Shown one piece after another: positions 17,984-38,768 of a stretch of 50,591 nucleotides of DNA. The translations under genes and the position numbers were made by a program. The number at the start of each line of letters is the position of its first letter. Within the stretch, counting starts at the first letter, position 1. The stretch comes from a virus. The stretch spans positions 1 to 50,591 of the IMG/VR virus record IMGVR_UViG_3300025892_000032, one strand, 5' to 3'. The notes under the pieces are model-generated. The model ran no database searches and was not told where the DNA came from. It saw nothing but the letters and a program-made list of their open reading frames with translations.

Positions 17984-18991
17984 TTATATCTCATAAGGTG
18001 ACTCACTAAAAGTTACTTCTTTCAAAGTTGAACACTCTTTAACTAAGTATTGTATGATAAACCCTTTAAATAACCTTTTGTCATTGAAGGTTAATAGATT
18101 CCCATTTTCTTTTAGTTTAAATGTATTTACTTTCTCTATTACGTCAATCTTATTTATAATTAGTTTATTTACACCGTTAATCTTAATTCCTTTTTTTAAA
18201 TCGTCTAAATCTAACCACCCGATTTGTCTTGGTCTACCTGTAGTAGCCCCAAACTCATTACCAACTTGTCTAATTAAATCAAATGTTCTTGATGGTTCTT
18301 CAAATTTTTTATTACCAACGTAGGTCCTATACGCCTTTGCAATTCCATAAACATCTCTAACCGTCTGATAAGGTACTCCGTTTTGTAAAGCTCCCGCGAC
18401 TGTACAGTGAGATGAAGTTACATATGGATAGTCTCCCCAATCTATATCCAACTCAAATCCTTGCGCACCTTCAAATAATATCTTAACCTCATCTTCTCCG
18501 TGAAGTTCATCATACATATCAACTACGTAATCAAATACTTCTTCACAGTCCTCTGCTCTTAATCCCGTTCTGTTATACTTTTCTCGGTATGTAGGTCCGT
18601 TACCTGTTTTTGTTGTGCCTATTTTGATGTCTTTGGTATCTTCCTCTACGTACTCATCTTTTGTAATGTGAACTCTCTTATCTATTAGTAAGTTTTCCCT
18701 AACTTTGAATCCTCCTTTTTCTAAGGTTCTTATTTCCTCTTCAAGTTTTGATGGGTTGACTATACAACCTGGCCCAATTATAGATTTAATACCATATATA
18801 ACACCTACAGGTATATAATGGGTTACGAACTTATTCCCATCATGGTATATGGTGTGACCCGCATTCCCACCTCCGTTATATCTAATTACGTGTGTGTACT
18901 CATCTTTTGTCGACGCTAAAGCGTGTGCCACTTTTCCTTTTCCTGTATCACCAGCCTGTAAATCGACGATGATGTCTGTGTATTTAATCAT
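17984..18991 (-). CDS. Short adenylosuccinate synthetase homologue (PurA/PurZ-type)
   Basis: 335 residues, about 95 shorter than E. coli PurA and close to the archaeal/phage short forms. PurA makes adenylosuccinate from IMP, Asp and GTP; phage PurZ uses dGMP on the way to 2-aminoadenine DNA. Visible blocks: GDTGKGK (14-20), GGGNAGHT (40-47), 'IGTTKTGNGPTY' (123-134), FEGAQG (172-177), 'GNEFGATTGRPRQIGWLD' (243-260) and NKID (279-282). The catalytic Asp of PurA is kept, but the next residue is Thr where PurA has Glu; as I recall PurZ reads GSTGKG, so this is intermediate. The C-terminal (S/T)xGPxR nucleotide block of PurA is not seen (ends SESPYEI). Confidence 0.85.
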   Translation of the reverse strand: MIKYTDIIVDLQAGDTGKGKVAHALASTKDEYTHVIRYNGGGNAGHTIYHDGNKFVTHYIPVGVIYGIKSIIGPGCIVNPSKLEEEIRTLEKGGFKVRENLLIDKRVHITKDEYVEEDTKDIKIGTTKTGNGPTYREKYNRTGLRAEDCEEVFDYVVDMYDELHGEDEVKILFEGAQGFELDIDWGDYPYVTSSHCTVAGALQNGVPYQTVRDVYGIAKAYRTYVGNKKFEEPSRTFDLIRQVGNEFGATTGRPRQIGWLDLDDLKKGIKINGVNKLIINKIDVIEKVNTFKLKENGNLLTFNDKRLFKGFIIQYLVKECSTLKEVTFSESPYEI

Positions 18992-24394: not shown

Positions 24395-25069
24395 TTAATT
24401 ATGGTCATACAATCTCCATGCGTTTTTATAGTTGTGGTCCATACCAGTCATAAACAATCCGTACTTATCAGCTATGTCTAAAAAAGGTTCTTTTACTGTC
24501 ATTCCTATTTCAGTAGTTACTTCATACAAATCATCCGAGCTAATACCGTGGTCAATCATAAATAGTTCATCAAAGTCCCATCTAGTATCATCATCTCTAT
24601 CTAAAAATTGTACTGAACCGTTAGTTATACGGACCTTCATACCTAATTCAACATCATATGGGTTTTCATCAGGAGTGTGTGTTTTCCTACTGATAACCCC
24701 AAAAGCTAAAGGTGTCACATCCATTTCGTATCCTCCTGAAGATATATGTCTTTTTTTACCTATACCTATTTCTTTTTTGGCTAACTCAAGTGCTTTATCA
24801 TATCCACCATGGAATTTTATTTTCAGTTTGTCAATCTCCTGTTCGTGTTCTAAACAGTTCAAACCAATATATCTACAGGGTGTTAGTTCTGTACCATTTT
24901 TACCCCAATAGTCAAATAAGAATTCTTCTACTTGAGGACTTAATTCCTTTTTTTTAGGTACTCCTTCCCAACCTTCACTCATTTCATACTCATCACTTTC
25001 AGGTGAAGCGTCAGTAACATGTGAATACTCTAAGTCTTCTTTCAATATTTTACGGATAAGTTCTCTCAT
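24395..25069 (-). CDS. Tagged phage protein, class II tag (MRELIRKILKED)
   Basis: 224 residues. Basic amphipathic N-terminal helix ending I-L-K-E, very close to that of the 12481 gene. An acidic, probably flexible linker (15-45) precedes a globular domain (50-224) with no recognised family. A TATTTAT motif lies 9 nt upstream. Tag plus acidic linker plus domain is the layout expected of a packaged head protein cleaved after the tag (inference). Confidence 0.7.
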   Translation of the reverse strand: MRELIRKILKEDLEYSHVTDASPESDEYEMSEGWEGVPKKKELSPQVEEFLFDYWGKNGTELTPCRYIGLNCLEHEQEIDKLKIKFHGGYDKALELAKKEIGIGKKRHISSGGYEMDVTPLAFGVISRKTHTPDENPYDVELGMKVRITNGSVQFLDRDDDTRWDFDELFMIDHGISSDDLYEVTTEIGMTVKEPFLDIADKYGLFMTGMDHNYKNAWRLYDHN

Positions 25070-25085: not shown

Positions 25086-25100
25086 GTTTATAAACAAAAA

Positions 25101-25126
25101 AACCTCAGTCGATTAGAACTGAGGTT
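25101..25126 (-). terminator. Rho-independent terminator of the long RNA
   Basis: Perfect 9-bp stem AACCTCAGT/ACTGAGGTT followed on the minus strand by T7. It lies at the 3' end of the structured RNA candidate. Confidence 0.85.
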
Positions 25127-25983
25127 TTGATATTATATATATGTTGGGATTGGGGGTTAAGGACGCTGAGATTACACGTTTGAAAGATTCGTCTTTTGTG
25201 GGATTATTATTACGTTTTCCCCACTTATCCACTCCCTTGACAGGAGTATCGAATCAGTGTCGGTTACTATCGGTAACCACTCGTATCGTTGATAACTACT
25301 CGATTATTACTTTACTCTCTTAAGACTTGCGGTCTCTCAAAGGGTTAGCCAACCCACGAGGTATTTTATAACCAATATCCTTAGACTTGCGGTCTGAAGG
25401 AAAACTTCGTTGACAAAGGTCCGAAGTATTAGACACCTTTCGTCATCAACGCTCGAAGACTCGTGCTTTTCTAATTTAATTTTAGATAAACAACATGGAT
25501 TTATGAAAGATGTGCTTCGAGAGAAGTTCTATACCTTTGGAGTACAGAATGCTTCACACCTCTCTGTAAGTCTGTCAACTTACGGTAATTCAGGACCACG
25601 TTAACTTACGTATCGGAGACCCATCATACTGGTACTCAGCCCTACAACACCTGACAGGGTGTGTCGAACCGTCACCTATAGCTTTTCCTATTGATATCAC
25701 TATCTCAACTCTGATATTCCACGGATTCAGAGTGGTCTCGTCCCTTTAGCAGTTGCCCTTGGGGTCTTGACCGTAGCCACTTTGTTTAGTTGTCAGTCAT
25801 ACGACTGCGGATATCCGAGAGTTGCTCAACACTCTTCAATCCCTTTAGTCCTGTTGCCAGGGTTATCTACGACGCTAAACCGCCGATGACTAATAAACCT
25901 TTGTTTAAATTGAAAAAGGGGGTTAATCTTTTTTGATAAACTCGAACCAAAGGTTGTTCGTCATTAGTATTTCAAAGAACTTT
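25101..25983 (-). ncRNA. Long structured non-coding RNA candidate (~0.88 kb)
   Basis: The 1,055-nt gap between genes 25069 and 26125 has no credible reading frame on either strand, but is visibly richer in G+C than its surroundings. On the minus strand it begins just after a perfect host-type promoter (25987-26019) and ends at a strong terminator. Many local stems can be read: CCTG-GCAA-CAGG, CAGTC/GACTG, CTCTGA/TCAGAG, ACACC/GGTGT, GTAAGT/ACTTAC, ACTTCG/CGAAGT, TCCTT-AGAC/GTCT-AAGGA, GGTTAC/GTAACC and ACTCC/GGAGT. The hairpin AGACCGCAAGTCT occurs twice (near 25320 and 25382). Size, phage context and isolation resemble giant ornate RNAs such as GOLLD or ROOL, but I cannot assign it to either. 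It is not tmRNA, RNase P or rRNA by their hallmark sequences. Confidence 0.75.
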
Positions 25984-25986
25984 CGA

Positions 25987-26019
25987 CAAAGATAAGAAAC
26001 TTTTTTCTTATTCTCCAAA
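25987..26019 (-). promoter_or_regulatory. Host-type promoter TTTG-N21-TATCTTTG
   Basis: Exact boxes at 25987-25994 and 26016-26019 on the complement. The expected start near 25982 begins the structured RNA. Confidence 0.8.
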
Positions 26020-26124
26020 TGTTTTTTTACTTTTTTTAAAAAGGTAATATATAAATATTATTATTTTCTTCAAAAGTCTTACAAAGATATAAAAAAATCT
26101 ATTTGAGTCAAGCAAAAACTACAA

Positions 26125-26343
26125 TTATTCTTTAATTCGGTAGTTATCGAAGTTATTCATTAATGTTTCTAACCGACCACTAGCGGACTCCATCTGTTCA
26201 ATTAGTTTATCCATCTCTTCAAGTATACCAGGATGTTCTCCAATACCTGAGGGATTGTTAAAGTAAATTTCAAGTGTTGCTCGACTTTCTTCAATTAGCG
26301 CTTCGTATTTTTTAACCAAAGCATTAAAAATTATTGATTTCAT
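26125..26343 (-). CDS. Conserved small helical phage protein, 72 aa
   Basis: Entirely helical, amphipathic protein (starts MKSIIFNALVKKYEALIEES) with 'IYFNNPSGIGEHPGILEEMDKL' in the middle. I recall almost the same sequence pattern in many marine T4-like phages, without known function. It may form a coiled-coil dimer. Divergent from the DUF192 gene and upstream of the long RNA promoter. Confidence 0.75.
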   Translation of the reverse strand: MKSIIFNALVKKYEALIEESRATLEIYFNNPSGIGEHPGILEEMDKLIEQMESASGRLETLMNNFDNYRIKE

Positions 26344-26373: not shown

Positions 26374-26730
26374 ATGAAAGTAATCATAAAAGATAATATT
26401 TTTAAAGTCAAACTTTGCACCACACAGAATTCAATATCTAAAGGTATGATGGGTAAAAGATTCGATAAAGAATTTAATGGTATGTTATTTATGATGCCAA
26501 GTTCAGGAGAACAAAGTTTTTGGACATATAACTGTGTTATCCCTTTGGATATAATTATGATTAATAACGGTGCTATTGACACTATTAACCATAGTTGTCC
26601 TCCATGTGAGATGAAAGAAAAATGTGAATCTTATACAGGTAAAGGTAATGAGGTTTTAGAATTACAGGGCGGTACCTGTAAAAAATTGGGTATTAAAAAA
26701 GGAGACCGAGTCTCCTTTTCTTTAGTTTGA
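26374..26730 (+). CDS. DUF192 family protein
   Basis: 118 residues with the DUF192 pattern: 'CTTQNSISKGMMGKRF' (S-x-x-x-G-M-M-x-R), 'GMLFMMPSSGEQSFWTYNCVIPLDIIMINN' region (F-W-M-x-N/C-x-x-I-P-L-D-I-x-F/M-x-x) and an 'LELQGGTCKKLGIKKGD' end. Many phages and bacteria carry it; activity is unknown. It has extra Cys residues in a 'CPPCEMKEKCESYTG' insertion that could bind metal. Its 3' end overlaps the convergent DHH gene by 9 nt. Confidence 0.85.
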   Translation: MKVIIKDNIFKVKLCTTQNSISKGMMGKRFDKEFNGMLFMMPSSGEQSFWTYNCVIPLDIIMINNGAIDTINHSCPPCEMKEKCESYTGKGNEVLELQGGTCKKLGIKKGDRVSFSLV

Positions 26731-28137
26731 TTTACTTTCGTTAATCTTTTCTTTTAGAACTTCAACGAATCTTCGTTGAATCATCTTTACAAACTTAACG
26801 TATGGAGTGTCTCCCTCTTTTTTACCATACTTCTTTTTACCTGAAGGAGGTCTCTTACTTCTACCAAAATAATTTAGTGCTGAAATATTTGTAATACATT
26901 TGTGACCACCTGAGTTTGCTTGAATCATTTCCCAAGCGGGTACCCCTAATTTATCTAATATTGCCCACTCAGAATCAGTTAACTCATTCGACGGTGTATT
27001 CATAATCGTTTTTAGTCTATCCATATACTCCTCTCCTCCATCTATTGAACGTACTTTATCTCCATAAAATGCTTCTAAGTCGGCATTCGTAAATCCTACT
27101 GAATCTTCATCAAAACTTTTACCTGATTCAGAAATCCATTTAATTGTAGATAATGGAATTATTTTATCTTTTAGTTGTGGTTCCCATTTAGCTAACACTT
27201 CTTGAGCTATCTCACCTAAGTTTACACCTTTTAATTCTCTCTCTCCTTTGAATGGGTTACAACTCGCCTGTACCAATCCCATTGGCCATGCTATGACTAA
27301 GAAGTCAGCACCAGGGTTATTCTTAAATGGTGTGTACCTATCATAAGAACCTGGTTTAAACATTGAACCTCCACCGTATTGTACAATTATACCATCATCT
27401 ACATAAACTTTGTCACTATTTTTTTGTTTTTGAACGTATCCTTTTTGATTCAAAGCCATTTCTTCAGGACTTGCATACCCTTCTTGTTGTGCTATCTTAT
27501 TTATGTTTTGAAATATATTCAATAATGATGGTGTTGAGTTCATTACCAACTTCTCTAAGAATCCAGGTTTGTTTTTATATGCCAATAACAATTTATTTGT
27601 TGCCAAACCTAAAGCCATTTTATTTTGCTGTAATCCTTTATCTTTTTGTAATTTAAATATAAAGTTCATAATGTCTTGAGGTTCAAGACCAAATCTAGCG
27701 AAATCTGCCGAATCAACTGTTGATATTAATGTAATATCATCTGATGGGAATATGTCTGATGGTGACATAATATCAGAAAGTGTTGCCACATTTGAACGAG
27801 ATGACCTAAAGGATGTTGAAGTATCTCCCTCAACACCAGTCTGACTATCGTGGTGGTCTGTATGAACCACAAACATAGGTTTACCATGTGCGAAATCAAC
27901 TAAGACCGGCATTGTATCTCCTTGAGCGTCCTGTTTCTTAACTGCAAACTCTTTATCTCCATATTGAATTATTTCAGAGTCAACAACTTCAATACCATTA
28001 TTTTCTAAGTAGTTTTTCATTGCCAATGCTGTAGTGACACCGTCTAAATCTTGGTGAAAGTAAATTTTGGCTTTCTTATATCTATCGGCTAAGTCTTTTA
28101 TATTTCTTAGTCCTGTCTCGTTTAATATTTTTTTCAT
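26722..28137 (-). CDS. DHH-family phosphoesterase with tag-like N terminus
   Basis: 471 residues. The HQDLDG block (28-33), DFAHG (81-85) and HTDHHD (92-97, the D-H-H signature), with a further acidic block near 'STVDSADFARFG', are the metal-binding motifs of RecJ/NrnA-type phosphoesterases, which cleave single-stranded DNA, short oligonucleotides or cyclic dinucleotides. The C-terminal 300 residues are not the typical DHHA1 domain and end in a Lys/Arg-rich 'SKRPPSGKKKYGKK'. The N terminus MKKILNETG carries an I-L-N-E site like the tags. Being possibly packaged, it might act on host nucleic acid or signalling nucleotides (inference). One-base overlap with the upstream tagged gene. Confidence 0.75.
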   Translation of the reverse strand: MKKILNETGLRNIKDLADRYKKAKIYFHQDLDGVTTALAMKNYLENNGIEVVDSEIIQYGDKEFAVKKQDAQGDTMPVLVDFAHGKPMFVVHTDHHDSQTGVEGDTSTSFRSSRSNVATLSDIMSPSDIFPSDDITLISTVDSADFARFGLEPQDIMNFIFKLQKDKGLQQNKMALGLATNKLLLAYKNKPGFLEKLVMNSTPSLLNIFQNINKIAQQEGYASPEEMALNQKGYVQKQKNSDKVYVDDGIIVQYGGGSMFKPGSYDRYTPFKNNPGADFLVIAWPMGLVQASCNPFKGERELKGVNLGEIAQEVLAKWEPQLKDKIIPLSTIKWISESGKSFDEDSVGFTNADLEAFYGDKVRSIDGGEEYMDRLKTIMNTPSNELTDSEWAILDKLGVPAWEMIQANSGGHKCITNISALNYFGRSKRPPSGKKKYGKKEGDTPYVKFVKMIQRRFVEVLKEKINESKSN

Positions 28138-28540: not shown

Positions 28541-29584
28541 TCAGTTTTCAGTATGCATATACTGCTTACCGTTAAAGATATAAATTGTTCCAAATGGAAT
28601 GTCGCGAGTGCTGTCAAATCTTTGACCCATGACATTGTAGTAATTATTATCTCGTGGTTGTTGAGTGTACTGAATCTCACCGACACTATTAGTGGTGTTG
28701 TCTAACAAGACTGCGTCGATAGCATGAACTACACCATTTTGAGCTTCCAAATCAGCTAAGACTACTGTAGCCGTACCGTTAATTGTTACTGTTTCACCGA
28801 CACCGACTGTTAAAGTACCACCACCAACTGTAGTTGCTTCTAATCCATCATATAAATCAGTACTCATAACAGTAGTACCTAATACGTGATACAAAAGAAT
28901 GTCAGTCAAATTAGGAAGGACCAAAAGGTCAGTAACCTCAACACCCAATGTGGTTGCTAATGAAACAAAAGCGTCATCAGTTGGTGCGAATACTGTAAAG
29001 GTACCTTCGCCTTCTAAAGTCTCTTGTAGACCTCCTGCAATAACTGCAGCTTCGAGATAGTTATGGACCTCACTTGATTCAATCCAATCCCATACCGCAG
29101 TTACTACAGGTTCGGTAGGTGGAAGAAGTACCGCGTCAATAACATGAACAACACCATTATCTGTTGTAATGTCAGCAACAGTAACCATTGCGTTATTAAC
29201 CATAACGGTACTATCAGTAAGAGTGATAGTAATATCCTCACCCAAGAGTGTTTCAAAGGTATCACCATCCATTAAATCACCGCTCAATGCAATTGCGTTA
29301 ACAACATGGTACAATAAGATATCACCCAACCCTTCAAGAGCCAATAACTCTTCGGGTGTAATACCTAATTCATAAACCAAGTTTGTAATTGCATCATCGG
29401 TAGGTGCAAATACTGTAAATGTACCCGTGGTATCACTTAACGCTTCAACCAACCCCGCCTCGATAACAGCAGCTTCCAATAATGTATGGTCTTCACTACC
29501 AACTATCACGTCCACAACGGTGGACTGAGAAAAACTAACTAGGGATGTTAAGGCCAATCCCAATGCCATTAATACTTTTTTCAT
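28541..29584 (-). CDS. Secreted two-domain fasciclin (FAS1) protein with T9SS-like tail
   Basis: 347 residues. Signal peptide 1-19 (ending SFSQS), then two FAS1 repeats (about 22-155 and 165-300), each with 'HTLLEAAV' or 'HNYLEAAV', 'FTVFAPTDDAF'-type and 'ILLYHVV...VVHVIDAVLLP'-type blocks. The last ~45 residues (YYNVMGQRFDSTRDIPFGTIYIFNGKQY in scattered match) resemble a type A T9SS sorting tail: N-x-x-G-Q-R, then P-x-G-x-Y-I-x-x-G-K. FAS1 proteins are adhesins. A phage copy might act at the host surface or as a receptor-masking or aggregation protein. Own terminator; no clear promoter. Confidence 0.85.
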   Translation of the reverse strand: MKKVLMALGLALTSLVSFSQSTVVDVIVGSEDHTLLEAAVIEAGLVEALSDTTGTFTVFAPTDDAITNLVYELGITPEELLALEGLGDILLYHVVNAIALSGDLMDGDTFETLLGEDITITLTDSTVMVNNAMVTVADITTDNGVVHVIDAVLLPPTEPVVTAVWDWIESSEVHNYLEAAVIAGGLQETLEGEGTFTVFAPTDDAFVSLATTLGVEVTDLLVLPNLTDILLYHVLGTTVMSTDLYDGLEATTVGGGTLTVGVGETVTINGTATVVLADLEAQNGVVHAIDAVLLDNTTNSVGEIQYTQQPRDNNYYNVMGQRFDSTRDIPFGTIYIFNGKQYMHTEN

Positions 29585-29689: not shown

Positions 29690-29710
29690 GACCCCTTATT
29701 ATAAGGAGTC
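29690..29710 (-). terminator. Rho-independent terminator of pckA
   Basis: GACTCCTTAT/ATAAGGGGTC stem with one mismatch and T6 on the minus strand. The stop codon of the PEP carboxykinase gene lies inside the stem. Confidence 0.8.
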
Positions 29711-31171
29711 TTTTATCATATTAAAAAATTTATCTTGTCTATTATTATCAGGTTTTTCAAAAACTTTTTCCATATTATACTCACATATTCTTTTTGGAAT
29801 TTTTAATCCATTATAGTTTATGTAATCATCTTCGTAATCTCTATCTATAACTCCGTTAATTACTCCGCGAGTTTGTTTTAGTGAAAATCTATTATAATTT
29901 TTATCAAAACCTGTATTTACTAACCAAACTTTTACTTTCTTATTATCCCCTATCCTTTCTCTGAACATGTCAGTGTAGTCAGATATTTTTCTAGGTAAGA
30001 ATGGGTCGCCAAAACAAGGTGAGAATGTTGTGGTGGGTTCAGTAACCCCGACTTCAGTACCCGCAACTTTTGATGTATATCCTAACCCAAAGTACTTAAC
30101 AGCTTGTTCTGTGTTGAGTAGTGATATTGGAGGTAATACACCGAAAGCATCGAAAGATAAGAAGAATATATTCTCAACCTCTACGCCCCTACCTGTCATA
30201 CTTACTTTAACGTCACGCCTTATTTGGTCCAATGGGTAAGAAACTCTAATGTTTTCTGTTATACTACTATCACTAAAGTCAACAACACCTTCCTCATTAA
30301 CAATAACGTTCTCCAATAATGAAGTATTTGTTCTAGTGAATTTACTATGGATTGCATCCCATATTACAGGTTCTTTATATTCATCTAAATCTATGAGTTT
30401 AGCGTAACACCCACCTTCAAAGTTATATATGTAATCATTATACCAACCGTGTTCATCATCCCCAATAAAATACTTTAAAGGGTCTGAGGATAAAGTTGTT
30501 TTACCAGTACCTGACAGTCCAAAAAATAAATTAACACCTCTACCATCTTTAGTATTAGCGTTAGCGGAACAATGCATCGGTAAGACTCCTCTATCAACTA
30601 AAAGAGTATTCATAACGGTAAAGATACTTTTCTTTATCTCACCCGTATAACTCGTACCAGCTATTAGAATTTTTCTATCATCAAAATCTATTATTACGAA
30701 ATTCTCATTTTTAACATCCTTGGGTCTATTTTTACTTACAAAATCAGGACAATGTAATATTTCCCATTCAGTGAATGTGGTTGAGAATGTTGTTACAAAA
30801 CTTTGTGGGTCAATTAACATATTGTTGAAAAATATAATTGCCCAAGGCTCAGTACTCGTTATTTTAAAAGTCGCGCTGTGTTCATAGTTATAACCTGCTA
30901 CTTGCCTAGCACTAAAAGTTTTTGTTTCTTCAATATAATCTTTAATTTCATTTTTTAATGAAAGATAACTATCTCTATTTACCCTTTGGTTTATGACTCT
31001 TTCAAAATCGATTGTATTATCTGTGTATTTTCCCTCAGAAAAATATCTGTCTTTAGGTGACCTTCCAGTAAACTTACCAGTATTAAAATATAATAGACCG
31101 TCTTTGGTCGTCTTTATTCCTCTCTCCTTAGCAAGGGCCATTAATTGCTCAGTAGTTTCGTAATAAACCAT
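29699..31171 (-). CDS. pckA: Phosphoenolpyruvate carboxykinase (ATP)
   Basis: 490 residues (bacterial enzymes ~530-540). It converts oxaloacetate and ATP to PEP and CO2, the first step of gluconeogenesis. Key blocks are intact: TGRSPKD (35-41), YTGEIKK (175-181), HCSAN (200-204, metal-ligand His), P-loop GLSGTGKT (218-225), DDEHGW (238-243), 'FTRTNTSLLENV' (278-289) and ENIRVSYP (306-313). The protein begins directly with the catalytic core, lacking ~40 N-terminal residues found in cellular forms. It starts 5 nt after the methyltransferase stop, so it belongs to a phage operon reaching back to 33910. A metabolic gene of this kind is unexpected in a phage; it may feed PEP and sugars into nucleotide synthesis (inference). 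Confidence 0.92.
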   Translation of the reverse strand: MVYYETTEQLMALAKERGIKTTKDGLLYFNTGKFTGRSPKDRYFSEGKYTDNTIDFERVINQRVNRDSYLSLKNEIKDYIEETKTFSARQVAGYNYEHSATFKITSTEPWAIIFFNNMLIDPQSFVTTFSTTFTEWEILHCPDFVSKNRPKDVKNENFVIIDFDDRKILIAGTSYTGEIKKSIFTVMNTLLVDRGVLPMHCSANANTKDGRGVNLFFGLSGTGKTTLSSDPLKYFIGDDEHGWYNDYIYNFEGGCYAKLIDLDEYKEPVIWDAIHSKFTRTNTSLLENVIVNEEGVVDFSDSSITENIRVSYPLDQIRRDVKVSMTGRGVEVENIFFLSFDAFGVLPPISLLNTEQAVKYFGLGYTSKVAGTEVGVTEPTTTFSPCFGDPFLPRKISDYTDMFRERIGDNKKVKVWLVNTGFDKNYNRFSLKQTRGVINGVIDRDYEDDYINYNGLKIPKRICEYNMEKVFEKPDNNRQDKFFNMIKDSL

Positions 31172-37342: not shown

Positions 37343-37689
37343 GATATTGTTTTGTATTTCTTAAATTTATTTAAGTAAAATATTATACTGTCTGTTGAAC
37401 CTTCTTTAGATAGACAGAATAATTTATATATATTTTCATCTACTTTTTTTACGAAATAAAAAAGTATTTTATTATCAAATTCTATTAGTCCGTTATTATA
37501 AATAGTAGTTGAACCATTGTAGTATTTATTAGACCATATTATTTTGTTTGATTTAAGTATAGTCTGTAGTAACTCCACAGTATAAAAGTCTGTCTCAAGT
37601 ATAGAGGGTTTAAAACCAATAATGTCCTCCGACAATTTTAGTAAATCATCGGGGACACTATCATAAGTATTATTTTTTTCTGTAATCAA
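37339..37689 (-). CDS. Hypothetical protein, 116 aa
   Basis: Soluble beta-rich protein overlapping both glutamine synthetase (4 nt) and thioredoxin (4 nt), so it is translated in step with them. No family is recognised. Its position suggests an accessory function in this metabolic operon, but nothing in the sequence shows one. Confidence 0.65.
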   Translation of the reverse strand: MITEKNNTYDSVPDDLLKLSEDIIGFKPSILETDFYTVELLQTILKSNKIIWSNKYYNGSTTIYNNGLIEFDNKILFYFVKKVDENIYKLFCLSKEGSTDSIIFYLNKFKKYKTIS

Positions 37690-38768
37690 CTTATCGAAAG
37701 TTCTTCAGACATTTCAAGTGGTTGGTCTTGACCATTTTTACATAAATCAATGGTGTCACTAATCACTTTGGTTATCTTGTATGGGTCTCCATTAGAAGCT
37801 GGTCTTCGGTCTTCTAAATAACCGTTCCACGTTTTAGAGGTCTCAAGAGGAACTCTAATTGATGCACCTCTATCCGATATACCCCAACTAAATTTAGTTA
37901 TATTTTGAGTCTCGTGAAGACCTGTCAAACGTAATTCATTACATGAACCGTAGTTTTCTATGTGTTCCAAATGACGAGATTCAAATAACTCAAGAATAGT
38001 TTCATAATATTCCTTATTACCATCTTCTCTCATTATTTTATCTGAAAAATTGCAATGAAGTCCTGAACCATTCCAATCACCTAATACTGGTTTTGGGTGA
38101 AACTCAATATGATAATCATATTCCTCTGACATTTGTTGTAGAATGTATCTAGAAATCCACAAATCATCACCAGCTTTAACCTTACCTTTACTAAATACCT
38201 GATATTCCCACTGACCTAACATAACCTCAGCATTTGTACCTGTAATGTCAATACCAGCCATTAGACAGTTTTCCAAATGTGAATCAACAAAACTTCTACC
38301 ACTTACTTGTAATTTACCTACACCACAGTAATACTTTCCTTGTGGTTCAGGAAATCCGTCTTTTGGAAATCCTAAAGGTTTACCATCTTTCATAAGTGTG
38401 TATTCCTGTTCAAACCCAAACCAAAGATTTTCGTCTTCATTTGTAAACAATCCTCTTGTATTAGTTTCGTGTGGTGTTCCGTCAGGATTCATTACTTCAC
38501 ATAAAACTAAGTAACTATCTAACATACCTTTATTTAAAGGATTTGGATAAAGTTTAACGGGTTTAAGTACACAATCTGAAAAGTGTCCTTTAGCTTGTTG
38601 AGTTGACGACCCGTCAAATGCCCATTGAGGACAATCAGTTAACCCAACTCCGTGAACTTTTTTTCCGTTTACTTCATGTGTGGGTGAATTAATTATTTTT
38701 ACCTTACTTCTTAGATTAGGTTCGGGTTCATACCCATCTAACCATATATACTCTAACTTAATTTTCAT
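37686..38768 (-). CDS. glnA: Glutamine synthetase, group II (eukaryotic/flavobacterial type)
   Basis: 360 residues, the usual GSII length. It makes glutamine from glutamate, ammonia and ATP. N-terminal beta-grasp 'KLEYIWLDGYEPEPNLRSK' (4-22), 'WAFDGSSTQQA' (49-59), catalytic FGFEQEY (117-123), 'PVLGDWNGSGLHCNFS' (227-242), 'GLHETQNI' (283-290), DRGASIRVP (299-307) and EDRRPASNGDPY (319-330) are all present, so it should be active. The sequence is close to flavobacterial GSII, suggesting acquisition from the host lineage. First gene of an operon with thioredoxin and glutaredoxin. Likely supplies amide nitrogen for purines and CTP. Confidence 0.95.
   Translation of the reverse strand: MKIKLEYIWLDGYEPEPNLRSKVKIINSPTHEVNGKKVHGVGLTDCPQWAFDGSSTQQAKGHFSDCVLKPVKLYPNPLNKGMLDSYLVLCEVMNPDGTPHETNTRGLFTNEDENLWFGFEQEYTLMKDGKPLGFPKDGFPEPQGKYYCGVGKLQVSGRSFVDSHLENCLMAGIDITGTNAEVMLGQWEYQVFSKGKVKAGDDLWISRYILQQMSEEYDYHIEFHPKPVLGDWNGSGLHCNFSDKIMREDGNKEYYETILELFESRHLEHIENYGSCNELRLTGLHETQNITKFSWGISDRGASIRVPLETSKTWNGYLEDRRPASNGDPYKITKVISDTIDLCKNGQDQPLEMSEELSIS

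Follow-up and report, generated by a model that had tools for sequence, protein, structure and literature searches.

What kind of RNA is encoded in the gap between two genes of this phage contig, and by which signals would a phage have it made? The window, i.e., the whole stretch of DNA that was analysed, is a 50.6-kb contig (IMG/VR record IMGVR_UViG_3300025892_000032; 50,591 nucleotides) and the gap lies on its minus strand between genes 24395-25069 and 26125-26343, both minus. The original prediction, made from the letters alone, was of a phage-borne, independently transcribed and highly structured minus-strand RNA recalling GOLLD, and it is supported by an Rfam match and by the flanking signals; the RNA is about 0.85 kb long. 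The gap had been described as free of genes and richer in G+C than its flanks. Both hold: the only ORFs inside it are two of 60 and 64 amino acids, both on the plus strand and thus opposite the GOLLD RNA, and its G+C content is 0.39-0.48 compared to about 0.23-0.36 in the immediate flanks. The proposed interval of 25101-25994 does contain the RNA, but its limits needed revision as the leader falls partly outside; the transcript probably spans from about 26075 or about 25980 to about 25096.

The window is syntenic on both sides with a 270-kb phage contig and is therefore a piece of a large phage. Homologues of the RNA sit on long phage contigs of up to 297 kb, and the phage carrying the locus is a large Bacteroidota-type phage. 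Unusual metabolic genes belonging to its lineage (Table 1) include an ATP-type PEP carboxykinase found in 11 related phage loci (most at about 76-91% identity), a glutamine synthetase found in five and a fasciclin protein conserved in related phage loci. There is also a weakly DHH-phosphoesterase-like protein (Pfam DHH, E-value 0.0018); in 90/90 loci where it was found, both GOLLD 5′ families included, its gene shares the strand of GOLLD at a distance of 1.2-4.2 kb. The adenylosuccinate synthetase matches PHROG 1211, whose annotation, 2-amino-type (PurZ-like) synthetase, makes base-modified phage DNA possible.

Table 1. Elements of the GOLLD locus in their order on the minus strand, followed by selected genes of the window.
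Feature	Position	Strand	Description
Distal promoter P1	26082-26111	-	TTGAC-N-TATCTTTG, Bacteroidota housekeeping type
AT-rich motif AATATTTATATATTACC	26043-26059	-	Kept in homologues; candidate phage-specific promoter motif
Proximal promoter-like site P2	25987-26019	-	TTTG-N21-TATCTTTG; overlaps a 7-bp AT-rich hairpin
boxA GTTCTTTGAAATA	25968-25980	-	Putative rRNA-type antitermination signal, opening the transcript
GOLLD 5′ domain	25565-25890 (approximate)	-	Outside the Rfam model; 85 consensus pairs, 15 helices
GOLLD 3′ domain	25163-25564	-	RF02032 positions 1-416; includes a short A/U-rich linker, no tRNA
AGACCGCAAGTCT hairpin 1	25383-25395	-	Stem in the Rfam GOLLD structure
GGGTTGGCTAACCC hairpin	25342-25355	-	Putative L21a position (bridge B8 of the solved cage)
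AGACCGCAAGTCT hairpin 2	25323-25335	-	Stem in the Rfam GOLLD structure
Intrinsic terminator	25096-25128	-	12-pair stem, then a T-rich run
Glutamine synthetase	37686-38768	-	
ATP-type PEP carboxykinase	29699-31171	-	
Fasciclin protein	28541-29584	-	
DHH-phosphoesterase-like protein	26722-28137	-	Weak match
Adenylosuccinate synthetase	17984-18991	-	PHROG 1211

Identity and fold of the RNA

The Rfam model of GOLLD (RF02032) matched the window with 304.9 bits (cmscan; E-value 2e-86 on the whole window), twice the Rfam gathering cut-off of 150 bits for this family. The match covers positions 1-416 of the 416 in the model, untruncated and with its alignment in register, and is the sole Rfam match above cut-off in the window. 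The original prediction could not assign the RNA to GOLLD or ROOL and had proposed an Infernal search against GOLLD, ROOL, OLE, and HEARO. Only the first of these matched, there being no Rfam match in the window to ROOL (RF03087), OLE or HEARO up to E = 10, nor any to ROOL in 30 related records. Judged by its sequence, the RNA is an added member of GOLLD, not of ROOL and not of a separate class, and its identity as GOLLD is close to certain.

GOLLD RNAs usually occur near tRNA genes, though this is not obligatory, and a rise in expression during lytic infection is expected of the class. No tRNA was found in the window by ARAGORN, and the 50.6-kb record has neither tRNA nor tmRNA. The two identical AGACCGCAAGTCT hairpins noticed in the original prediction are both stems of the Rfam GOLLD model. 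The GGGTTGGCTAACCC hairpin was placed at the L21a position by the published numbering (PMC12286853), and in all aligned family-0 relatives its loop, located by position only, has a self-complementary GC centre with varying flanks. Compared with the second family, that of the window appears to have the GC-palindrome and CGCAA loops of the two neighbouring P21 hairpins (3′ domain) swapped.

The 5′ domain required a comparison of its own. A search with a 16-base word taken from it yielded 100 viral loci, about 96 of which are real relatives, and clustering at 96% identity gave 29 non-redundant representatives; one match each in genome contigs (L122) and for L034 fell below the Rfam cut-off and was left out. 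RNAalifold on the 29 representatives gave 85 pairs, with 98.5% of cells paired. Changes on both sides were counted in 39 of these pairs vs 23.6 ± 2.1 in shuffles (0/500 shuffles as high), and a control in which the partner was displaced by one to three columns gave at most 17 compensated pairs. The score for covariation was 0.365 vs 0.154. Covariation above the controls therefore argues for a conserved RNA fold, and there is very little doubt that the 5′ domain is a real structured RNA.

In blastn searches, the 5′ domain was found solely in relatives of its own type, with other GOLLD 5′ domains unconnected to it. This, and the location of the 5′ 0.4 kb outside Rfam, would fit the suggestion in the original prediction of a new or strongly diverged class, in which case the likeness of this large ornate phage RNA to GOLLD or ROOL would be superficial. 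Such a class is highly improbable, being refuted by the full-length Rfam match, and a conserved 3′ domain joined to a 5′ domain that is not conserved is the published pattern of GOLLD (PMC12286853). Moreover, a covariance model of the last 128 positions of the 5′ domain gave weak matches in four other GOLLDs (E-values 0.03-0.4), at least three of them located and oriented as expected. The two GOLLD 5′ families are probably very distant relatives, and their non-homology is not claimed since the covariance model matches weakly where blastn links none. The chance that the gap holds a decayed or unrecognised protein gene, which the two small plus-strand ORFs might suggest, is negligible, as the Rfam match is decisive, loop length changes among homologues, and the features to which the original prediction had pointed as telling, covariation and coding frames, gave 39 compensated pairs among the 29 homologues, conservation that tracks RNA pairs and no conserved frame; a coding gene was rejected on these grounds.

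Promoter-type sites, terminator and probable boxA of the leader

The original prediction had also placed a Bacteroidota promoter and a terminator on the minus strand. A TAnnTTTG-type promoter site is indeed present, but there are two such sites, only one of which had been named. P1 persists in homologues with as little as about 72% identity. P2 overlaps an AT-rich hairpin of 7 bp (fold of -7.1 kcal/mol), which in P1 transcripts may be a boxB-like hairpin instead of part of a promoter; at this position, more distant homologues have TTTGACA-N-TAnnTTTG and then a separate hairpin. The terminator proved to be strong, and relatives such as L005 preserve its stem through compensatory changes.

The [AT]TATTTAT motif of the leader (26059-26043) also occurs 8-70 nt before start codons, with 12/53 genes having it in sense vs 4 antisense, which is only suggestive of a phage promoter. 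The T4-type late promoter TATAAATA was not enriched (11 and 6 found vs 6.7 expected per strand), and the related ATATTTAT before starts is likewise only suggestive as a promoter motif. Some leaders have extra small structured elements, located between tandem promoters in L006, L014, and L015 and between promoter and boxA in L134-L138; GATTTGAAAC..GTGATGAAAGATACTCG..ATCAAATC is an example.

In rRNA leaders, boxA is the site of NusB/NusE(S10), and the rrn order is boxB-boxA. A boxA leader was missed in the original prediction, and it is GTTCTTTGAAATA that would fill this role in the window. The leader of distant homologues is nearly random in alignment except for GTTCTTTGAAATA, its best conserved nine-column stretch, and the TCTT core of this element is invariant in 29/29 clusters. 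In 1.26 Mb of viral loci, GTTCTTTGAAA was at the GOLLD 5′ end in 102/102 cases with 0 elsewhere, and a ten-letter boxA form was there in 105/110; as these loci were chosen for GOLLD and include redundant copies, what carries weight is the count away from GOLLD, zero (or five), together with the conservation among clusters. GOLLDs of the second 5′ family carry GTTCTTTGAA in 13/17 representatives and GTTCTTTAAAA in two more, and boxA also stands at the 5′ end where the 5′ domain of a GOLLD is barely recognisable.

The same strings are found in host rRNA leaders. Among six plasmid-borne Bacteroidota rrn operons, four carry GTTCTTTGAA or GTTCTTTTGA at a distance of 130-225 nt before 16S, downstream of a TAnnTTTG promoter, and GTTCTTTGAA is present in the rrn leaders of Aureibacter, Prevotella, and Segatella. 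The other two, both Flavobacteriia rrn leaders, carry the variants GTTCCTTGA and GATCATTGA, and the host match of the boxA is therefore at the level of the phylum, not of a known host.

The position is also that of an rRNA leader, with boxA placed between promoter and structured RNA, an order kept in homologues. Most relatives have a small hairpin with compensatory changes between promoter and boxA, as in the boxB-boxA order of rrn, its arms being TCGGA/TCCGA, CAGGA/TCCTG, TTGGT/ACCAA, CAGTA/TACTG or TTAGT/ACTAA. The sole pre-boxA hairpin of the window is the one overlapping P2, which is only 6 nt from boxA. Transcripts from P2 might thus lack a complete boxA, with those from P1 alone certain to carry it. 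GTTCTTTGAAATA is probably a functional boxA.

boxA before other phage RNA genes

The occurrence of boxA was followed in 25 whole phage records, where the 11-mer was found 37 times vs 9 for a reversed control pattern. Thirty of these sites were examined with Rfam, giving 17 GOLLDs, four tmRNA genes and one seven-gene tRNA array, with no RNA family at the remaining eight. With regard to tmRNA, GTTCTTTGA or a variant lies within about 30 nt upstream of the mature 5′ end in 8/8 Bacteroidota-type phage tmRNAs inspected (L154, L164, L168, L156, L006, L014, L003, and L025). The boxA variants of GOLLD and tmRNA leaders were compared in L026/L029 and L025; in L029, GTTCTTTAAAA precedes both RNAs, as would be expected if the variant of a phage follows its host.

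Phages of other phyla have other boxA strings. Ruegeria phage DSS3_MAL1 has GCTCTTTGACA before a tRNA-GOLLD-tmRNA array, identical to the element in Ruegeria and Tritonibacter rrn leaders; in this phage (L145 2070-2533) the GOLLD match encloses a tRNA-Arg gene, as is typical of the linker-tRNA arrangement. In mycobacteriophage Bongo, TTGAGAACTCAATAGTG precedes a tmRNA-tRNA-GOLLD segment, and the Tsukamurella rrn leader is the same with one change, TTGAGAACTCAAYAGTG being common to the two. No boxA was found in the stretches read for the GOLLDs of one 642-kb phage and of the Acinetobacter and Streptococcus phages. boxA before GOLLD is thus, in the loci compared, common and not universal. Two wider roles were rejected. 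boxA does not mark every long non-coding RNA of phages, being absent from the unrelated ICP1 RNA and from the GOLLD stretches read in the Acinetobacter and Streptococcus phages and the one huge phage, nor does it generally signal tRNA arrays in phages, with just 1/16 tRNA-first arrays having one. It is fairly likely that phages infecting several phyla put their own host's boxA, often with a boxB-like hairpin, before GOLLD, tmRNA and sometimes tRNA arrays, such that the antitermination machinery of rRNA would see to the synthesis and folding of these RNAs.

These observations bear on two other readings of the element. A genuine boxA could serve as a decoy, an abundant leader RNA tying up NusB/S10 and so slowing host rRNA synthesis, instead of acting on the transcription of GOLLD itself. 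It does lie in the leader, outside the folded domains, and long non-coding RNAs of phages can outnumber every other transcript of an infection, as in phage ICP1 (PMC7567579). A decoy is nonetheless unlikely, since related phages also have the boxA before tmRNA and one tRNA array, where cis-acting control is simpler, and since its placement after the promoter and before the RNA, with a hairpin, follows the rrn order. Less likely still is that GTTCTTTGAAATA is part of the GOLLD fold or a processing site and resembles boxA by chance; its nearly fixed distance, within about 100 nt, from the folded 5′ domain would fit this, but it is in none of the consensus pairs, the same string occurs before tmRNA and in host rrn leaders, and in phages of other phyla its place is taken by the boxA of the respective host phylum.

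Proposed synthesis and comparison with known systems

As far as sequence goes, the locus has a full GOLLD match, a covarying 5′ domain, a terminator, conserved promoter-type sites and a boxA identical to those of host rRNA leaders. The best explanation of the whole, and a likely one, is a GOLLD made by the host polymerase under rRNA-type Nus-factor control, completed, folded and able to form a cage. In infection, host RNA polymerase would start at the housekeeping-type promoters, P1 and perhaps P2. The nascent boxA would then bind NusB/NusE(S10), and the Nus complex may ride with the polymerase as it does on rRNA, prevent premature (Rho-type) termination of a 0.85-kb RNA unprotected by ribosomes and aid co-transcriptional folding, the transcript ending at the intrinsic terminator. 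The Nus complex of E. coli both antagonises Rho and aids RNA maturation (PMC4807359, PMC5725501), and on rRNA the latter may be the main role of Nus factors rather than the blocking of Rho (PMC4807359). For a long non-coding CRISPR array, a boxA added in front brought the amount of RNA up about tenfold (PMC7862264).

The finished RNA would assemble like its solved relative, into a hollow cage of 14 subunits with the 5′ domains as caps and the 3′ domains as ring. That relative, GOLLD env-38, was seen by cryo-EM as a 14-mer cage (PDB 9MEE) and has 833 nt, with the 5′ domain at 1-420 and the 3′ domain at 421-833 (PMC12286853). A cage is likely in the case of the window's GOLLD because it agrees with env-38 in length, in domain boundary and in the self-complementary loop at the putative L21a position. 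Its linker has no tRNA, and covalent tRNA cargo is therefore ruled out for this member. According to the account given in PMC7567579, GOLLD of a Lactobacillus brevis prophage is dispensable for phage production, and any benefit is therefore probably conditional.

An rRNA-type boxA leader would provide a concrete and testable account of how a phage makes such an RNA, and would link GOLLD to S10/NusB and hence to the ribosome machinery. The uses of boxA have so far been rRNA, suhB, and CRISPR arrays, and would now extend to phage RNA genes. Ribosomes bind GOLLD in pull-downs (PMC12286853). The roughly 96 viral loci with covariation also offer a second deep family for work on cage structure. No text naming both boxA and GOLLD came up in a literature search and no description of such a leader was found; priority is not claimed, an earlier mention in Weinberg 2009 or Stringer 2020 being possible.

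Among known systems, the abundant non-coding RNA of about 800 nt in phage ICP1 (PMC7567579) is alike in its phage origin, its size and having no tRNA nearby, and differs in having no GOLLD match and no boxA. ROOL RNA (RF03087) is similar in size, phage setting and its RNA-only cage, but has no Rfam match in the window. GOLLD (RF02032) itself shares the full 3′ domain in register, a separate 5′ domain of about 0.4 kb, a total of about 0.83 kb, a variable linker and the phage setting, with a self-complementary loop core at the putative L21a position; the window's RNA differs in its short linker without tRNA, in having no tRNA or tmRNA nearby and in its rRNA-type boxA leader. With respect to this leader, the boxA of Legionella CRISPR arrays, GTTCTTTAAAA (PMC7862264), likewise precedes a long untranslated RNA and recurs unchanged where GOLLD begins in L026 and L029, although it belongs to a CRISPR leader and not to a phage RNA. 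The boxA of rRNA leaders is alike in its Bacteroidota rrn sequence, its position from promoter to structured RNA and the boxB-like hairpin before it in most relatives, the difference being that the putative boxA of the window would drive a phage cage RNA instead of rRNA.
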